A stretch of DNA of 64,000 nucleotides from Desulfuromonas sp. CSMB_57. Lineage in GTDB: Bacteria; Desulfobacterota; Desulfuromonadia; Desulfuromonadales; Syntrophotaleaceae. Shown here in pieces: positions 25,575 through 31,627 of this stretch (position 1 is its first letter; each line of letters opens with the position of its first letter). Both the position numbers and the translations under genes were made by a program. The stretch lies in contig NZ_JAFCIY020000022.1 of NCBI RefSeq assembly GCF_020194955.2, positions 62,001 to 126,000 on the forward strand, in the 5' to 3' direction. The notes under the pieces are model-generated. The model worked only from the letters and a program-made list of their open reading frames with translations, had not been told where the DNA came from and did no database searches.

Positions 25575-27242
25575 TTAGCCGAGGATGGCCTTGAGGTCTT
25601 CGGCCGGAGTGGAGATGGGGGCGATCTGGTAGTTCTCCACCAGGAAGTTGAGCACGTTGGGGGTCACGAAGGCCGGCAGGCTCGGACCCAGTTTGATGTT
25701 TTTGATGCCCAGGTGCAGCAGGGTCAGCAGGATGACCACCGCCTTCTGCTCGTACCAGGACAGGATCATGGACAGCGGCAGGTCGTTGACGCCGCACTCG
25801 AAGGCGCCCGCCAGGGCCACGGCGATCTGGATGGCGCTGTAGGCGTCGTTGCATTGGCCCACGTCCAGCAGCCGCGGGATGCCGCCGATATCGCCGAAGT
25901 CCAGCTTGTTGAAGCGGTATTTGCCGCAGGCCAATGTCAGGATGACGCAGTCCTTGGGCACCTGCTCGGCGAACTCGGTGTAGTAGTTGCGGCCCGGTTT
26001 GGCACCGTCGCAGCCGCCGATGAGGAAGAAGTGCTTGACCGCGCCGGCCTTGACCGCCTCGATGACCTTGTCGGCCACGCCCAGCACGGCATTGTGGCCG
26101 AAGCCGACCAGGATCTCCTGGCCCGGTGCTTCCGGCAGGTCGGGACAGGCCAGGGCGCGCTCGATGACTTCCGAGAAATCCCAGCCGTCGATGTGCCGGA
26201 CGTCCGGCCAGGCGGTGCAGCCCCAGGTGAACAGGCGGTCCTTGTAGGCCTCGGCCGGCTTCTGGATGCAGTTGGTGTTGAAGATGATGGCGCCGGGGAA
26301 CTGAGGCAGTTCCTTGGCCTGGTCCTGCCAGGCACCGCCGAAGTTGCCGACCAGGTGGGCATACTTCTTGAGGCCGGGGTAGCCGTGGGCCGGCAGCATT
26401 TCACCGTGGGTATAGATGTTGATGCCCTTGCCCTCGGTCTGCTTGAGGAGTTCCTCGAGCATCTTCAGGTCGTGGCCGGAAACCAGGATGCCCTTGCCGG
26501 CGCGGGTGCCGAGCTGGACCTTGGTGGGCACCGGATGGCCGTAGTGTTCGACATGGCCGGCGTTCAGCAGGCCCATGACGGTGAGGTTGTGCTTGCCGCA
26601 TTCCAGGGCCAGGTTGACGAAATCCATCAGGCCCAGGGACGGGTCGCAGGTGGCGGCCAGGGCGCGGTAGTAGAAATCGGTGACCTCGTCGTCGGTCTTG
26701 CCGAGGATCTGGGCGTGCTCGGAATAGGCCGCCATGCCCTTGAGGCCGTAGATGAGGATCTCGACGGCGGAGCGCACGTCGGCGTCGTCATGCAGTGTTT
26801 CGATGCCGTGTTCCTGGCCCTGCTTGACCAGGTCCCCGGCCGGTTTCCAGGCGGTGGGTCCGGCGGCGGCACTTTCGCCGCAACAGCCGAACAGAGCTTT
26901 CAGCTTGCCGAAGATGGAGGTGCTCGGCTCCTTGCCGCCGGCCTGGCGATACATTTCGCGAGCCTTTTCCTTCATCTGGTAGCACTGGCCGATGAGTTTC
27001 TCCAGCCGTGCCGGATCGAAGTCGACGTTGGTGACGGTGGCGAACAGCGCCTCGTACAGAAATTTGTCGAGTTCGGCATTCTTGGCGCCCATTTTACGAG
27101 CTTCGCTGGCATAGCAGGCGAGGCCGCGCAGTCCGTAAAGCAGGTTGTCCTGCAGGGCTGCGACATCCGGCAGTTTGCCGCAAACGCCGCTTACGGTGCA
27201 TCCGGTTCCCTTGGCAGCCTGTTCACATTGACGACAAAGCAT
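25575..27242 (-). CDS. hcp: Hybrid cluster protein (hydroxylamine reductase / NO reductase)
   Basis: 555 residues. The N terminus MLCRQCEQAAKGTGCTVSG puts four Cys at 3, 6, 15 and 21, the spacing of class I Hcp from strict anaerobes that binds a [4Fe-4S] cubane. Conserved hybrid-cluster residues are visible in ECGKHNL, NTNCIQKP, GCTAWPDVRH and VGQCNDAYSA. AAGGAGG lies 8 nt before the start. Hcp removes nitric oxide and hydroxylamine, by-products of nitrite reduction, in the cytoplasm. No Hcr reductase gene is adjacent. Its promoter carries an FNR/HcpR-type box like that of nirBD. Confidence 0.95.
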   Translation of the reverse strand: MLCRQCEQAAKGTGCTVSGVCGKLPDVAALQDNLLYGLRGLACYASEARKMGAKNAELDKFLYEALFATVTNVDFDPARLEKLIGQCYQMKEKAREMYRQAGGKEPSTSIFGKLKALFGCCGESAAAGPTAWKPAGDLVKQGQEHGIETLHDDADVRSAVEILIYGLKGMAAYSEHAQILGKTDDEVTDFYYRALAATCDPSLGLMDFVNLALECGKHNLTVMGLLNAGHVEHYGHPVPTKVQLGTRAGKGILVSGHDLKMLEELLKQTEGKGINIYTHGEMLPAHGYPGLKKYAHLVGNFGGAWQDQAKELPQFPGAIIFNTNCIQKPAEAYKDRLFTWGCTAWPDVRHIDGWDFSEVIERALACPDLPEAPGQEILVGFGHNAVLGVADKVIEAVKAGAVKHFFLIGGCDGAKPGRNYYTEFAEQVPKDCVILTLACGKYRFNKLDFGDIGGIPRLLDVGQCNDAYSAIQIAVALAGAFECGVNDLPLSMILSWYEQKAVVILLTLLHLGIKNIKLGPSLPAFVTPNVLNFLVENYQIAPISTPAEDLKAILG

Positions 27243-27398: not shown

Positions 27399-28115
27399 TC
27401 AGCCGCCCGATTCTTTCAGGCTGTGCCGGAGGGCTTCCAGCAGCGTGTCCTGAAAGGTCTGCCAGCTCTGCGGGTCGGACAAAGGATAGTTCTGGTTGAC
27501 TTCCAGTTCGATGCCGAGGTAGGCATCCGGGTCGAATTCCCTGCGCAGGGCGGTGACCAGGGCATCGGCGTTGCCGCGATAGGGGTAGTTTCGGCGCACC
27601 CGCAACCCGGGGGCGAGGCGTCCCAGGGTCGCCTGCAGAAGCGTGCAGAAGGCGCGCTCGACCGGCCGGGCCGGATCGTACAGCAGGCCGAGATCGGCAT
27701 TGCGGGCCACCCCGTGCCAAACCGGGGTGAAGGAGTGCACCGACAGATGCAGCACCCGGTGGCCGGCGGCACCGAGACGGGCGACGGTGGCCCGCGCCTC
27801 GTCCCAATAGGGGGTGTGGTAGCGCTGCAGCAATTCGGCCCGCTCCCCTGCCGGCAGGTTGCGGGTCAGTGCGGACCACAGGGTGCGGCTGCGGGGAGAG
27901 CGATTGGCGTCGAGGAGCAGGCGGGTGATGGTGGTGGCCAGCAACGGTGCAGCCAATTCTTGCGCCAGTTTCCGGGCCAGAGGCAGGATGCCGATATCGT
28001 ACCCGCGATGGCTGGCCAGCAGGGTCTGCGCGTCGGCGAACAGGGCCTGATAGGGAGCCGGTATCTGGTTGCCGGCGTGTTCGCAGCTGACAAACACTGC
28101 CCAGTGATCGGTCAT
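27399..28115 (-). CDS. N-formylglutamate amidohydrolase-family protein
   Basis: 238 residues from MTDHWAVFVSCEHAGNQIP. The N-terminal SCEHAGNQIP and RGYDIG stretches, a LSVHSFTPV in the middle and the GIELEVNQNY end match the N-formylglutamate amidohydrolase family, zinc-dependent hydrolases of the carboxypeptidase fold. AAGGA lies 8 nt upstream. The start overlaps the GCS2 ligase stop (ATGA), and it is the last gene of a four-gene operon. There are no histidine-degradation genes nearby, so in this setting it more likely cleaves an amide or peptide made by the two ligases than formylglutamate (inference). Confidence 0.85.
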   Translation of the reverse strand: MTDHWAVFVSCEHAGNQIPAPYQALFADAQTLLASHRGYDIGILPLARKLAQELAAPLLATTITRLLLDANRSPRSRTLWSALTRNLPAGERAELLQRYHTPYWDEARATVARLGAAGHRVLHLSVHSFTPVWHGVARNADLGLLYDPARPVERAFCTLLQATLGRLAPGLRVRRNYPYRGNADALVTALRREFDPDAYLGIELEVNQNYPLSDPQSWQTFQDTLLEALRHSLKESGG

Positions 28116-29428
28116 GGTTCGATCCTTGTTGGTGGTTGATGGTTGTTTTGCGCCGGGCCGGCCGGTTGTCGGAAGCTTTCGGACGGCGCTGGAAACAGGC
28201 GGTTGGTCGCCAGACAGGCGCACAATTCCCCATAAACGGACCGTAAGCCGGCCGGATCGGGATGTTCGCCGACGGCGTTCAGCAGTCGGCGGGCGAGGGG
28301 CCCCTGTTCCAGCATGACCCGCAACGGTTCCCGGACTTCCTGGAAGTCCTCGGGATGCTCCCCGTCCAGGGTGGCGACCAGATGCGACCAGAGTTCGCCG
28401 GCGGTGCCGGCAGAGGCGGGAAAGCCGAAGGCCGCCAGGTAGGCCGGATCGTCCAGGCGGGCCTGCTCACCCTGGTGAATGGTGCGCGCCAGCAGGGTCG
28501 CGAGGGGGGCGACGGGCCAGGCTTTTTGGACGGCCAGGGGTTGCCAGCGTTCTTCGACCAGGGCGCGCAGCACGGCCGCAACGGCCGTCAGGACGGCCTG
28601 GTCGGCGAGGGGACATTCCTGCACGTCGAGCAGCCGGATTTCGATGGTGCTGCGCTGGAATCGGGCAATGGCGCCGCGGGAGTTGAGCCATTCATGGCGC
28701 AGGAGCCTTTCCCCGTCGAAGGGCGCGATGGCGCGGTACATGGGTTGCAAGATCCGGCGGCGATAGTCCCGCCGGGTGAAAACCGCTTCGGGAATGATCG
28801 CGCCGGCGATGAGCGGCAGACGTTTCTGGTTCTGCTGGTAGACCAGCAGGCGCGTATCCAGGGCGGTGCTGAAACGCCCTTCGACAAAGGGCGAACTGGC
28901 CGCCAGGGCCGGCAGGATGGGTAACAACAAGCGCACGGCGGCATGCAGACGGCCGAATTCTTCATCCCCCGAAAAGGGTAGATTGAGATGGCAGCTCTGC
29001 AGATTGGTCCAGCCGTGACCGCGACAATCGAAAATCCGATGGTAGGCCTGATAAATTGCCTTGTCGCCATGGGGCCAAAGGCGGGCTTCGGTGTGAGGGG
29101 CCATCCAGGGATGCATGGCCGTCGGCATCAGGCAGGCATCCAGGCCGGCCAGTTCCCGGTTGACCTCGGTGACCGCGGCCCCGAACCGGCCGGCCAGTCC
29201 GTCCAGGGTGGCGACCGGGCCGTTGGTTTTCAACTCCAGGACATGCAATGCCAGTTCGTTGGACCAGCGCAGGGGGCCGCAGATCCGTTCCCTGGTGGGT
29301 CGGCCGCGGCGATCCGTGAGCAGGTGGTCGGCCAGCGGCAGGATCGCCAGGGTGTCGCGGCGCACGATCATATATTCCAGTTCAACGCCGAAGCCCTGAA
29401 AAAGATGTAGCGGCCGGGAACGGTTCAT
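28112..29428 (-). CDS. GCS2-family carboxylate-amine ligase
   Basis: 438 residues from MNRSRPLHLFQGFGVELEYM. The opening GVELEYMIV, the conserved HxNLP in QSCHLNLPFSGDE, SSPFVEGRF, and RSTIEIRLLDVQECP are hallmarks of the glutamate-cysteine ligase family 2 fold (glutamine-synthetase-like amidoligases). The ATG overlaps the stop of the ATP-grasp gene as ATGA, and the 3' end overlaps the amidohydrolase in the same way. It should join an amine to a carboxylate using ATP. The pairing with an ATP-grasp ligase argues against plain glutathione synthesis. Upstream extension of the frame is only a shadow of the ATP-grasp gene. Confidence 0.85.
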   Translation of the reverse strand: MNRSRPLHLFQGFGVELEYMIVRRDTLAILPLADHLLTDRRGRPTRERICGPLRWSNELALHVLELKTNGPVATLDGLAGRFGAAVTEVNRELAGLDACLMPTAMHPWMAPHTEARLWPHGDKAIYQAYHRIFDCRGHGWTNLQSCHLNLPFSGDEEFGRLHAAVRLLLPILPALAASSPFVEGRFSTALDTRLLVYQQNQKRLPLIAGAIIPEAVFTRRDYRRRILQPMYRAIAPFDGERLLRHEWLNSRGAIARFQRSTIEIRLLDVQECPLADQAVLTAVAAVLRALVEERWQPLAVQKAWPVAPLATLLARTIHQGEQARLDDPAYLAAFGFPASAGTAGELWSHLVATLDGEHPEDFQEVREPLRVMLEQGPLARRLLNAVGEHPDPAGLRSVYGELCACLATNRLFPAPSESFRQPAGPAQNNHQPPTRIEP

Positions 29429-30909
29429 CGTCTCGGTATCCCCTTTTGCTTTTCCACGCGCCGCATCAGGCCCTGCATGATGCGCAAGTAGAGTTCCTCC
29501 TGCAACACCGCATCCTCGATGCCGGCATCGATGTTGGGATTGTCGTTGATCTCCATCACCAGCACGCGCGCGCCGATCTGTTTCAGGTCCACCCCGTAGA
29601 GTCCGTTGCCGACCAGGTTGGCCGCCCGCAGGGCGGTGCCGATCACGGTCGCCGGCACCTGGGTGAGAGACACGGTGTCCGCCGGACCCTCGTCCTGCTT
29701 GCGGCCGTCGGCGGAACGCCGCAGAATTTGCCAGTGCCCCTCCGCCATGTGGTAGCGACAGGCAAACAGGGGCTTGCGGTCGAAGATGCCGATGCGCCAA
29801 TCGAAGGCGGTGGGCAGATATTGTTGTGCGAGGATCAGGTCCGAATGGTGAAGCAGGCGTCGCATCTGGCAGCCCAAGTCCTCGGGGCTGTCGACCCGGA
29901 CGACCCCGCGGGAAAAGGCGCTGTCCGGCTGTTTGAGAACGCAGGGCAGGCCCAGGGCATCCAGTACCGGCTGCAGCAGGGGGCGCTGCACAATCAGGGT
30001 CTGCGGCGTGGCGATGTGATGCCGCTGCAGAAGTTCCGCCAGAAACACCTTGTTGGTGCATTTGAGAATGGAATCGGGATCGTCGATCACCACCAGTCCT
30101 TCGGCGGCCGCCCGACGGGCGAAACGGTAGGTGTAATGATTGACGCTGGTGGTTTCGCGGATGAACAGGGCATCGAATTCCGCCAGCCGGCCGAAATCTT
30201 CCCGACCGATGCATTCGGCGGCGAAACCGACCTCTTCGGCGGCATGCAGGAATTGTCGCAGAGCTTTGCTGTTGGATGGAGGTTCGCTGGCGTCGGCATC
30301 CACCAGGATGGCGAGATCGAACCGTGCGCTGCTGCGGCGTGGGGCACGGGGTTCCAGCCCCTGGAAGTATTCCCGGGCCCGGGCGATGACGAAGTCGCGA
30401 TGCTCTTCGGGAATCTCGCTGGCGGCGATGGGGGCGAGATGCAGCAACCGCCACTTGCCGTGTCGGACGCTCCAGCCGAAGGAGGCGCGCAGGAAGGGCG
30501 CCGGAAACAGGCGGAACAACTGCTGGCTGAGGCGGTCATAGCGTTTGGCAAGGTTGCGTCCCAGGTAGATGCTGAGGTCGAATTCGGTGGAGCGGATGGG
30601 CTTGAGGCTGCTTTGGATCAGATCGTCCAGGTCGTCGGCGGCGATGCGGAGGATGCTGGAGGATTTGAGATCCTGGATGGCGGCCACCTTCGGCAGGGGT
30701 TTGTGGCCGCGGGCTTCAGCCAGCAGGGAGACGTAGTAGCCGAGGCTTTGGTAGCGGTAGGAGCGACACAGGTTGAAAACCCGCAGGCCACGTCGCTCAA
30801 TAAACCGCGACTCGTTCAGGTAGCGGCGGGCCGCCACCAGTTCCACGCCCTCTATCTGCAAAGGCCAGGCGCGCGGGTTGTCCACCACAATTATCGCATC
30901 AGTGTTCAT
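29425..30909 (-). CDS. RimK-like ATP-grasp ligase with N-terminal RLAN domain
   Basis: 494 residues from MNTDAIIVVDNPRAWPLQIEG. The N-terminal ~170 residues (RRYLNESRFIERRGLRVFNLCRSYRYQSLGYYVSLLAEARG and onward) match the RLAN domain found ahead of some RimK-like ligases. A pre-ATP-grasp region is followed by the ATP-grasp domain (about 290-490) with CVLKQPDSAFSRGVV and the Mg-binding MEINDNPNID. It overlaps the preceding peptidase gene by 11 nt. Family members add glutamate or other amino acids to a carboxyl group through an acyl-phosphate. The acceptor here is unknown. Confidence 0.88.
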   Translation of the reverse strand: MNTDAIIVVDNPRAWPLQIEGVELVAARRYLNESRFIERRGLRVFNLCRSYRYQSLGYYVSLLAEARGHKPLPKVAAIQDLKSSSILRIAADDLDDLIQSSLKPIRSTEFDLSIYLGRNLAKRYDRLSQQLFRLFPAPFLRASFGWSVRHGKWRLLHLAPIAASEIPEEHRDFVIARAREYFQGLEPRAPRRSSARFDLAILVDADASEPPSNSKALRQFLHAAEEVGFAAECIGREDFGRLAEFDALFIRETTSVNHYTYRFARRAAAEGLVVIDDPDSILKCTNKVFLAELLQRHHIATPQTLIVQRPLLQPVLDALGLPCVLKQPDSAFSRGVVRVDSPEDLGCQMRRLLHHSDLILAQQYLPTAFDWRIGIFDRKPLFACRYHMAEGHWQILRRSADGRKQDEGPADTVSLTQVPATVIGTALRAANLVGNGLYGVDLKQIGARVLVMEINDNPNIDAGIEDAVLQEELYLRIMQGLMRRVEKQKGIPRR

Positions 30910-31627
30910 GACCGACCTGTTTGCGGCGTGGTTGGAGGACGAGGAGGTTGGCGTCATAAGTCAGGACCCCAAGCAGAATGGAACACAGTACCCTCTCGAT
31001 GGGAACCTGGTAGATCTGCCCGGGAGCAACCGGATTGGGCAGCAGGGGATCCGCCACGGACATGAGGCGCTGGTCCTGATGATAGCCGCACAGCACCACG
31101 AAGTGTCCGGATGGTTCTCCGCGCAGGTCGTCGTAGTCGCAGTGCGGTCCGTGCTCACGTGGGGTTCGATACAGGTAGGTGGCGCTCAAACCGGTGATGA
31201 TGGGCACACCCTGTTTGACGTAGCGGCGGATCAGGCTCAGGGTCAGATCCTCCATGCGCAGCTCGCCGCCCAAGTCGAGAAATTTTAGATAGCCGGCCGT
31301 GGCGGCCTGCAGGCGGGGATCCTGTTTGAACTCCAGTTGGGCCTGCAATCGCTCCTTGAGGTCAGGTCCGCCGGGGCGCAGCCAAGTGGGATCGAACAGC
31401 TGCAGTTTATAGGTGTAAATCCGCGCCCGATAGCCGCGCTGCAGGGCGTGGCAGGCCAGCAATACCGCCAGGGTCCCGCCGCTGGCCAGCATCGGCACTT
31501 CCCGGATCACCCGGTCCAGGGGCAGATCATCTCCGAAAAAGCGATAAACAGCCTGCAGGCAGGTGGGGCCGCAGGTGGTGTCGTCCGGTTGCGGGGAAAT
31601 CTCAAAAGGCAGATGGACCTGGGCCAT
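30899..31627 (-). CDS. C39-like cysteine peptidase family protein
   Basis: 242 residues from MAQVHLPFEISPQPDDTTCG. The papain-fold triad is visible: Cys19 in TTCGPTCLQ, His in SGHFVVLCGY (about 188) and Asp in SVADPLL (about 204). There is no signal peptide, transporter or membrane segment, so it is a cytoplasmic stand-alone domain rather than a bacteriocin exporter. It is the first gene of the four-gene cluster, overlapping the ATP-grasp gene. It may trim or transfer the amide/peptide product of the two ligases (inference). The ribosome binding site is weak (CAGG). Confidence 0.82.
   Translation of the reverse strand: MAQVHLPFEISPQPDDTTCGPTCLQAVYRFFGDDLPLDRVIREVPMLASGGTLAVLLACHALQRGYRARIYTYKLQLFDPTWLRPGGPDLKERLQAQLEFKQDPRLQAATAGYLKFLDLGGELRMEDLTLSLIRRYVKQGVPIITGLSATYLYRTPREHGPHCDYDDLRGEPSGHFVVLCGYHQDQRLMSVADPLLPNPVAPGQIYQVPIERVLCSILLGVLTYDANLLVLQPRRKQVGHEH

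Follow-up and report, generated by a model that had tools for sequence, protein, structure and literature searches.

Conserved gene neighbourhoods that bring together an RLAN-RimK ligase, a GCS2 ligase and a peptidase were reportedly predicted by Iyer and colleagues in 2009, with peptide-like metabolites or tags as their products. The window analysed here, a stretch of 64,000 nucleotides from Desulfuromonas sp. CSMB_57, carries an operon that is rated as a probable member of this already predicted kind and not as a new kind of system. Full-text literature searches found no paper on the cluster and no biochemical characterisation of it. The present analysis measures the co-occurrence of the genes, the conservation of their overlaps, the separability of the FGase gene and the occurrence of EgtC-like neighbours, and adds structure models. 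The 2009 study (Iyer, Abhiman, Maxwell Burroughs and Aravind, Mol Biosyst 5:1636) is cited in PMC4431377 and PMC8939145.

The operon comprises four overlapping genes on the minus strand between positions 27399 and 31627, and the coordinates and overlaps of 11, 4 and 4 nt reported in the initial annotation hold exactly. The gene transcribed first encodes a C39-like (papain-fold) cysteine peptidase or hydrolase of 242 aa (31627-30899), followed by an RLAN-RimK ATP-grasp ligase of 494 aa (30909-29425). The third gene specifies a GCS2-family carboxylate-amine ligase of a distinct subfamily (29428-28112; 438 aa) and the fourth an FGase-family hydrolase resembling N-formylglutamate amidohydrolase (28115-27399; 238 aa). 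The C39 and RLAN genes share an 11-nt overlap at 30899-30909, and the RLAN/GCS2 (29425-29428) and GCS2/FGase (28112-28115) junctions are ATGA 4-nt stop/start overlaps. An in-frame ATG at 30957 offers an alternative start for the RLAN-RimK gene, giving a protein of 510 aa. As none of the four proteins reaches an NCBIfam cut-off, the names glutathione synthetase, RimK, YbdK and HutG are not earned, and the corresponding single-gene annotations are rejected. Directly downstream, on the same strand, lies an Hcp (hydroxylamine reductase) gene (25575-27242); this adjacency does not recur beyond the window's own family, where 5 loci show it, and is therefore probably lineage-specific.

In the RLAN-RimK ligase, an RLAN domain (Pfam E-value of 1.1e-46) is fused to a RimK-type ATP-grasp domain (3.2e-5). 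In the 510-aa form, RLAN occupies approximately residues 43-191, with the pre-ATP-grasp and ATP-grasp regions extending from there to the C-terminus. A profile of the family (A2) matches LysX (3vpd, 1.8e-10) and RimK (7qyr, 6.5e-10), and the AlphaFold2 model (pLDDT 87.7) resembles RimK, LysX/ArgX and Ddl in fold. These matches span only about 300 columns, so the RLAN domain itself has no separate fold match. The protein retains D370/R372, D441, K443, E453 and N455; its C-terminal half has the fold and catalytic core of RimK, LysX and ArgX. It differs from them in the additional RLAN domain, in its operon context and in equivalog scores far below the cut-offs: the ligase half leans to LysX/RimK at about 50 bits, which is below cut-off, and reaches 21.9 bits against the 331 set for the RimK equivalog PRK10446. 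In one locus (L162), an N-terminal extension of the RLAN protein that had the appearance of a fusion was rejected, as it results from reading the C39 gene in a wrong frame.

The GCS2 protein is recognized by Pfam GCS2 at 4.4e-27. Its AlphaFold2 model (pLDDT 92.6) is closest in fold to YbdK (1tt4/1r8g, TM-score up to 0.82 by target length), then to the plant glutamate-cysteine ligase 2gwc, with a distant similarity to Dop/PafA. Across 40 sequences many polar and charged residues are invariant, namely E16, E18, N57, E58, R166, R193, N249, R251, R259, E263, D268, Q270 and E271, with one unreadable letter set aside at positions 16 and 18. The fold is therefore shared with YbdK and the glutamate-cysteine ligases, but the sequence identity is approximately 13-17% and the scores lie far under the family cut-offs. 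Among the NCBIfam models the protein leans to YbdK and glutamate-cysteine ligase (GCL) at about 44 bits, the best being gshA_cyan_rel with 44.5 bits against a cut-off of 176.4. A second GCS2 protein of the same genome (G000:C31) scores 387 bits with the plant-type glutamate-cysteine ligase family (cut-off 463), and the operon protein lies far below it on all families of this enzyme. No glutathione synthetase over cut-off was found in the genome, the best GSH-S_ATP match reaching 20.3 bits against a cut-off of 23. The low GCL scores and the separate canonical-type enzyme speak against ordinary glutathione synthesis and support the earlier reading of a dedicated system. Nor was the converse case encountered, in which the GCS2 protein alone makes gamma-glutamylcysteine and the other genes are unrelated; judged by sequence, G000:C31 appears the better candidate for that reaction.

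The two hydrolases can be placed in their families in the same manner. The C39-like protein matches Pfam Peptidase_C39_2 at 4e-10, the query for the Pfam and NCBIfam scans being some 15 residues short at the C-terminus and in the right frame, and its profile (A4) matches solved C39 domains in the PDB (3k8u, 4.2e-6). Residues Q13, C19, H175 and D193 are retained in every complete sequence (39 sequences) and are predicted to form the active site. The Cys-His-Asp triad and the glutamine thereby stand in C39-like positions, as in Peptidase C39 and C39_2. Unlike Peptidase C39, the operon protein is soluble and stand-alone, is not fused to an ABC transporter and has no double-glycine substrate nearby; no signal peptide or membrane segment was apparent on inspection by eye. 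The FGase protein (Pfam FGase, 1e-25) is similar throughout to 2odf (profile A5, 6.4e-41), and E12, H13, H36, H127, R138, E203 and E205 are invariant in 32 sequences. It therefore shares the conserved E/H/R residues of the family that includes 2odf and the deformylase HutG. It differs from HutG itself in scoring 27.9 bits against an equivalog cut-off of 278.75, and no histidine-degradation context was seen, in agreement with the earlier remark that genes of that pathway are lacking nearby; a role in histidine metabolism is thus not supported.

The C39, RLAN-RimK and GCS2 genes form a trio that behaves as a unit across genomes. Among 58 genomes of the window's family and order, the C39 protein (A4), the GCS2 subfamily (A3) and the operon-type RLAN protein occur in an identical set of 15. 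The A3 profile separates the operon GCS2 subfamily (598-658 bits) from every other GCS2 match (26 bits at most) in these genomes, and GCS2 genes without the operon occur, as such weak matches, in many genomes of the order. In 80 GTDB loci with an RLAN alignment, the trio is present in 73 and all four genes in 47, in identical order, with some of the incomplete loci truncated where the contig stops. The 80 loci are the best of at least 576 relatives and come from many phyla, and the proportion with the trio is accordingly valid for close relatives of the query, not for all RLAN proteins. The genes thus do co-occur elsewhere, so that the rare co-occurrence named in the initial annotation as a refutation was not encountered, and the grouping of the RLAN-RimK gene with a GCS2 ligase and a papain-fold peptidase gene in the same direction is conserved across genomes. 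The recurrence of the gene order in distant phyla and the perfect co-occurrence of the core in the 58 relatives indicate that the cluster is more than chance.

The overlaps between the genes are also widespread. With start codons picked by script, the RLAN/GCS2 junction is an overlap at 68 of the 80 loci, 45 of them with exactly 4 nt; the same holds for the C39/RLAN junction at 43 of 81 loci and for GCS2/FGase at 42 of 60. Gene-tree distances are correlated between C39 and RLAN (rho 0.57), C39 and GCS2 (0.44) and RLAN and GCS2 (0.60), against permutation maxima of 0.24-0.27; the values with FGase are 0.32-0.52. This correlation partly reflects shared species history. Sixteen phylum-level labels are represented among the loci, and in the Chlamydiota locus (L062) C39 was not found; the trio is common to about fifteen bacterial phyla. 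The RLAN tree, a quick one, groups partially by phylum, with interleaved rows labelled Myxococcota, Thermodesulfobacteriota, Acidobacteriota and Planctomycetota, and contains 26 phylum changes where at least 15 are needed. The interleaving is compatible with some transfer and is no proof of it, metagenome-assembled genomes making up the majority of the rows. In the window's own phylum, RLAN was found in 14 of 297 sampled genomes: the window's own, ten of the operon type and three stand-alone or fused. One locus of this sampling (L174:4991-8630, genome G282) has an RLAN gene split over two frames and no C39 gene was found in it; either the operon is decaying there or the assembly is at fault. 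The full operon is present in L112, a metagenome record that bears the title Klebsiella pneumoniae; L112 groups with the gammaproteobacterial loci L056 and L069, and its label is probably wrong. Cultured carriers include Nitrosomonas communis, Blastopirellula marina and Rufibacter glacialis.

The FGase gene follows a different distribution. It is not beside the trio in 26 of the 80 loci (about a third). A search of 31 genomes, picked mostly where FGase had not been seen beside the trio, gave a match in 13 and none in 18; in a few of the 13 the gene does adjoin the trio and had been missed in the first gene calling. Among the 58 relatives, strong A5 matches occur in all 15 trio genomes and in five further genomes without the trio. 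A common neighbour was sought in these five and not found: the adjacent genes, in different genomes, encode MauG, MscS, a proteasome-beta-like protein, a DnaJ-like protein and a periplasmic binding protein. In one such locus (L158:7667-9271), the FGase homologue adjoins a possibly Anbu-like protein that matches proteasome-beta weakly. FGase is a separable accessory to the C39/RLAN-RimK/GCS2 core. The initial description of four genes as a dedicated system therefore stands as regards a self-contained ligase-plus-hydrolase unit with conserved catalytic residues, and is to be amended to a three-gene core with a separable FGase in place of an obligate set of four.

Beyond these four genes, the surroundings of the operon are idiosyncratic between loci. 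When the flanking ORFs of all loci were clustered, no additional family proved widely recurrent on the operon strand. A Pfam scan of flanking genes on the same strand, 65 on either side, returned mostly singletons, the exceptions being Hcp in the window's own family (5) and MscS (4), with no recurrent partner or transporter in the flanks. No conserved small ORF in sense orientation, which might serve as precursor, tag or carrier, was found within 1.5 kb of the operon, and hence no candidate graspetide precursor; those small ORFs that do recur run antisense to C39, Hcp or neighbours. Genes for MscS channels adjoin the operon on its downstream side in four loci (L025, L027, L031 and L042) and follow FGase in L156; an osmolyte role drawn from these neighbours was set aside as they are too rare.

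A GATase_4 protein is encoded beside the operon, on the opposite strand, in 5 of the 80 loci (L056, L065, L069, L077 and L112), which fall in two separate RLAN clades. Its nearest PDB match is 3mdn, followed by the amidohydrolase EgtC. With a profile (A8) built from these five adjacent proteins, strong matches (>398 bits) were obtained in 7 of 50 operon genomes, five of the seven being the adjacent ones. The 58 relatives gave weak partial matches only, nearly all inside large open frames, and the EgtC-like hydrolase is therefore not universal. In ergothioneine synthesis, EgtC takes off a gamma-glutamyl group, and the EgtC-like neighbours accordingly hint at gamma-glutamyl chemistry and at nothing further.

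The current proposal, held with moderate confidence, is that the cytosolic core and the optional FGase constitute one pathway that both assembles a glutamyl-type amide and turns it over, the amide being most likely a small metabolite akin to a short peptide. In favour of a single pathway are the shared distribution and order of the trio, the conserved overlaps, the correlated gene trees, the intact active-site residues, the folds of the two ligases and flanks that hold no recurrent partner. The GCS2 protein would use ATP to activate a carboxylate, typically for its family the gamma-carboxyl of glutamate, and couple it to an amine. The RLAN-RimK ligase may then form a second ATP-dependent amide on this product, with the RLAN domain aiding substrate binding. 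The C39-like thiol hydrolase would trim or cut an amide, either in the intermediate or in the product. In loci that have it, FGase may take off an N-acyl or amide group beside a glutamate-like carboxylate, in recycling or editing. A metabolite is favoured over the alternatives because of the absence of a tag or precursor gene, the chemistry of the GCS2 family and the EgtC-like neighbours. Several points speak against the proposal: RimK-like ligases often modify proteins (S6, LysW), so that the target may be a protein encoded elsewhere; the EgtC-like neighbours are confined to 5 of 80 loci, from which profile A8 was itself built; and the C39-like hydrolase and FGase might act on unrelated compounds. 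Stated more broadly, and held with somewhat firmer confidence as fairly likely, the trio would yield a glutamyl-amide compound not yet described, or a reversible protein tag, in about fifteen phyla, with FGase and, in some lineages, the EgtC-like proteins as interchangeable recycling enzymes. This compact, self-contained and widespread pathway of two ATP-dependent ligases and two hydrolases is a good target in the search for a new and common metabolite or protein modification of bacteria. Because its core genes co-occur perfectly and some carriers are in culture, the operon can be tested directly.

The GCS2 or RLAN-RimK enzyme could instead add glutamyl or other residues to a protein, with C39 and FGase processing or removing the tag. 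Such tagging has parallels in RimK acting on S6, the pupylation ligase with Pup and the TTLL enzymes on tubulin. The nearest solved relatives of the ligase half, RimK and LysX/ArgX, act on proteins, the extra N-terminal RLAN domain could recognize one, and GCS2 is distantly similar in fold to Dop/PafA, but this last likeness extends to the glutamine-synthetase-like superfamily as a whole. Near the operon, no small gene for a tag or carrier was found to be co-conserved, and no proteasome-like or protease partner recurs in its flanks, leaving a protein tag on the doubtful side; the absence of such a gene makes the analysis lean towards a metabolite. A glutathione-like thiol pathway, in which gamma-glutamylcysteine or a close analogue would come from GCS2 and RLAN-RimK would attach a third residue in place of GshB, appears improbable. 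It would account for the GCS2 and ATP-grasp folds, which are those of glutathione synthesis, for a genome with a GCL-type gene and no GshB over cut-off, and for the EgtC-like hydrolases beside some operons. It is at odds with the position of the operon GCS2 far under every NCBIfam GCL cut-off, with the separate GCL-type enzyme, and with the weakly matching GCS2 genes that occur without the operon in many genomes of the order.

Very improbable is a RiPP or graspetide pathway, with the ATP-grasp enzyme introducing cross-links into a ribosomal precursor whose leader is cleaved off by the C39 peptidase. Both activities are known elsewhere: in many RiPP systems the double-glycine leader is cut by a C39 peptidase, and graspetides are products of ATP-grasp enzymes (PMC8939145). 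At this operon no conserved small ORF was found that could encode the precursor, the recurrent ones being antisense, and no ABC transporter recurs beside it on its strand. Neither GCS2 nor FGase is known to belong to graspetide loci.

RLAN-RimK proteins also occur outside the operon. The two other RLAN genomes among the 58 relatives (G044 and G052) encode GNAT-RLAN-RimK fusions with none of the other operon genes nearby. Fusions of this type, lacking C39, GCS2 and FGase in the vicinity, were observed at L033:7371-9410, L035:7041-9077 and L173:7492-9450, and are a second, stand-alone use of RLAN-RimK. A plasmid collection contained distant or stand-alone relatives (Pseudomonas; Azospirillum and others) and one partial operon in Legionella adelaidensis, which comprises RLAN-RimK, GCS2 and FGase, its RLAN gene beginning at the record edge. 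A stand-alone RLAN-RimK gene on a Pseudomonas aeruginosa plasmid record (L175:7917-9506) lies near gamma-glutamyltransferase, asparaginase and Glu/Asp transporter genes and is probably a homologue of PA1345, which is listed with an upstream Cpx site (PMC12802237). No relatives of the operon were found in annotated phages. Viral contigs (L188-L196) encode ATP-grasp ligases that are 36-43% identical to the RimK half of the window's protein, mostly without RLAN. The presence of portal, baseplate wedge and ribonucleotide reductase genes suggests that L188 and L193 are true phages. The ATP-grasp gene of L192 and L193 is overlapped by a gene for a GNAT acetyltransferase directly upstream of it.
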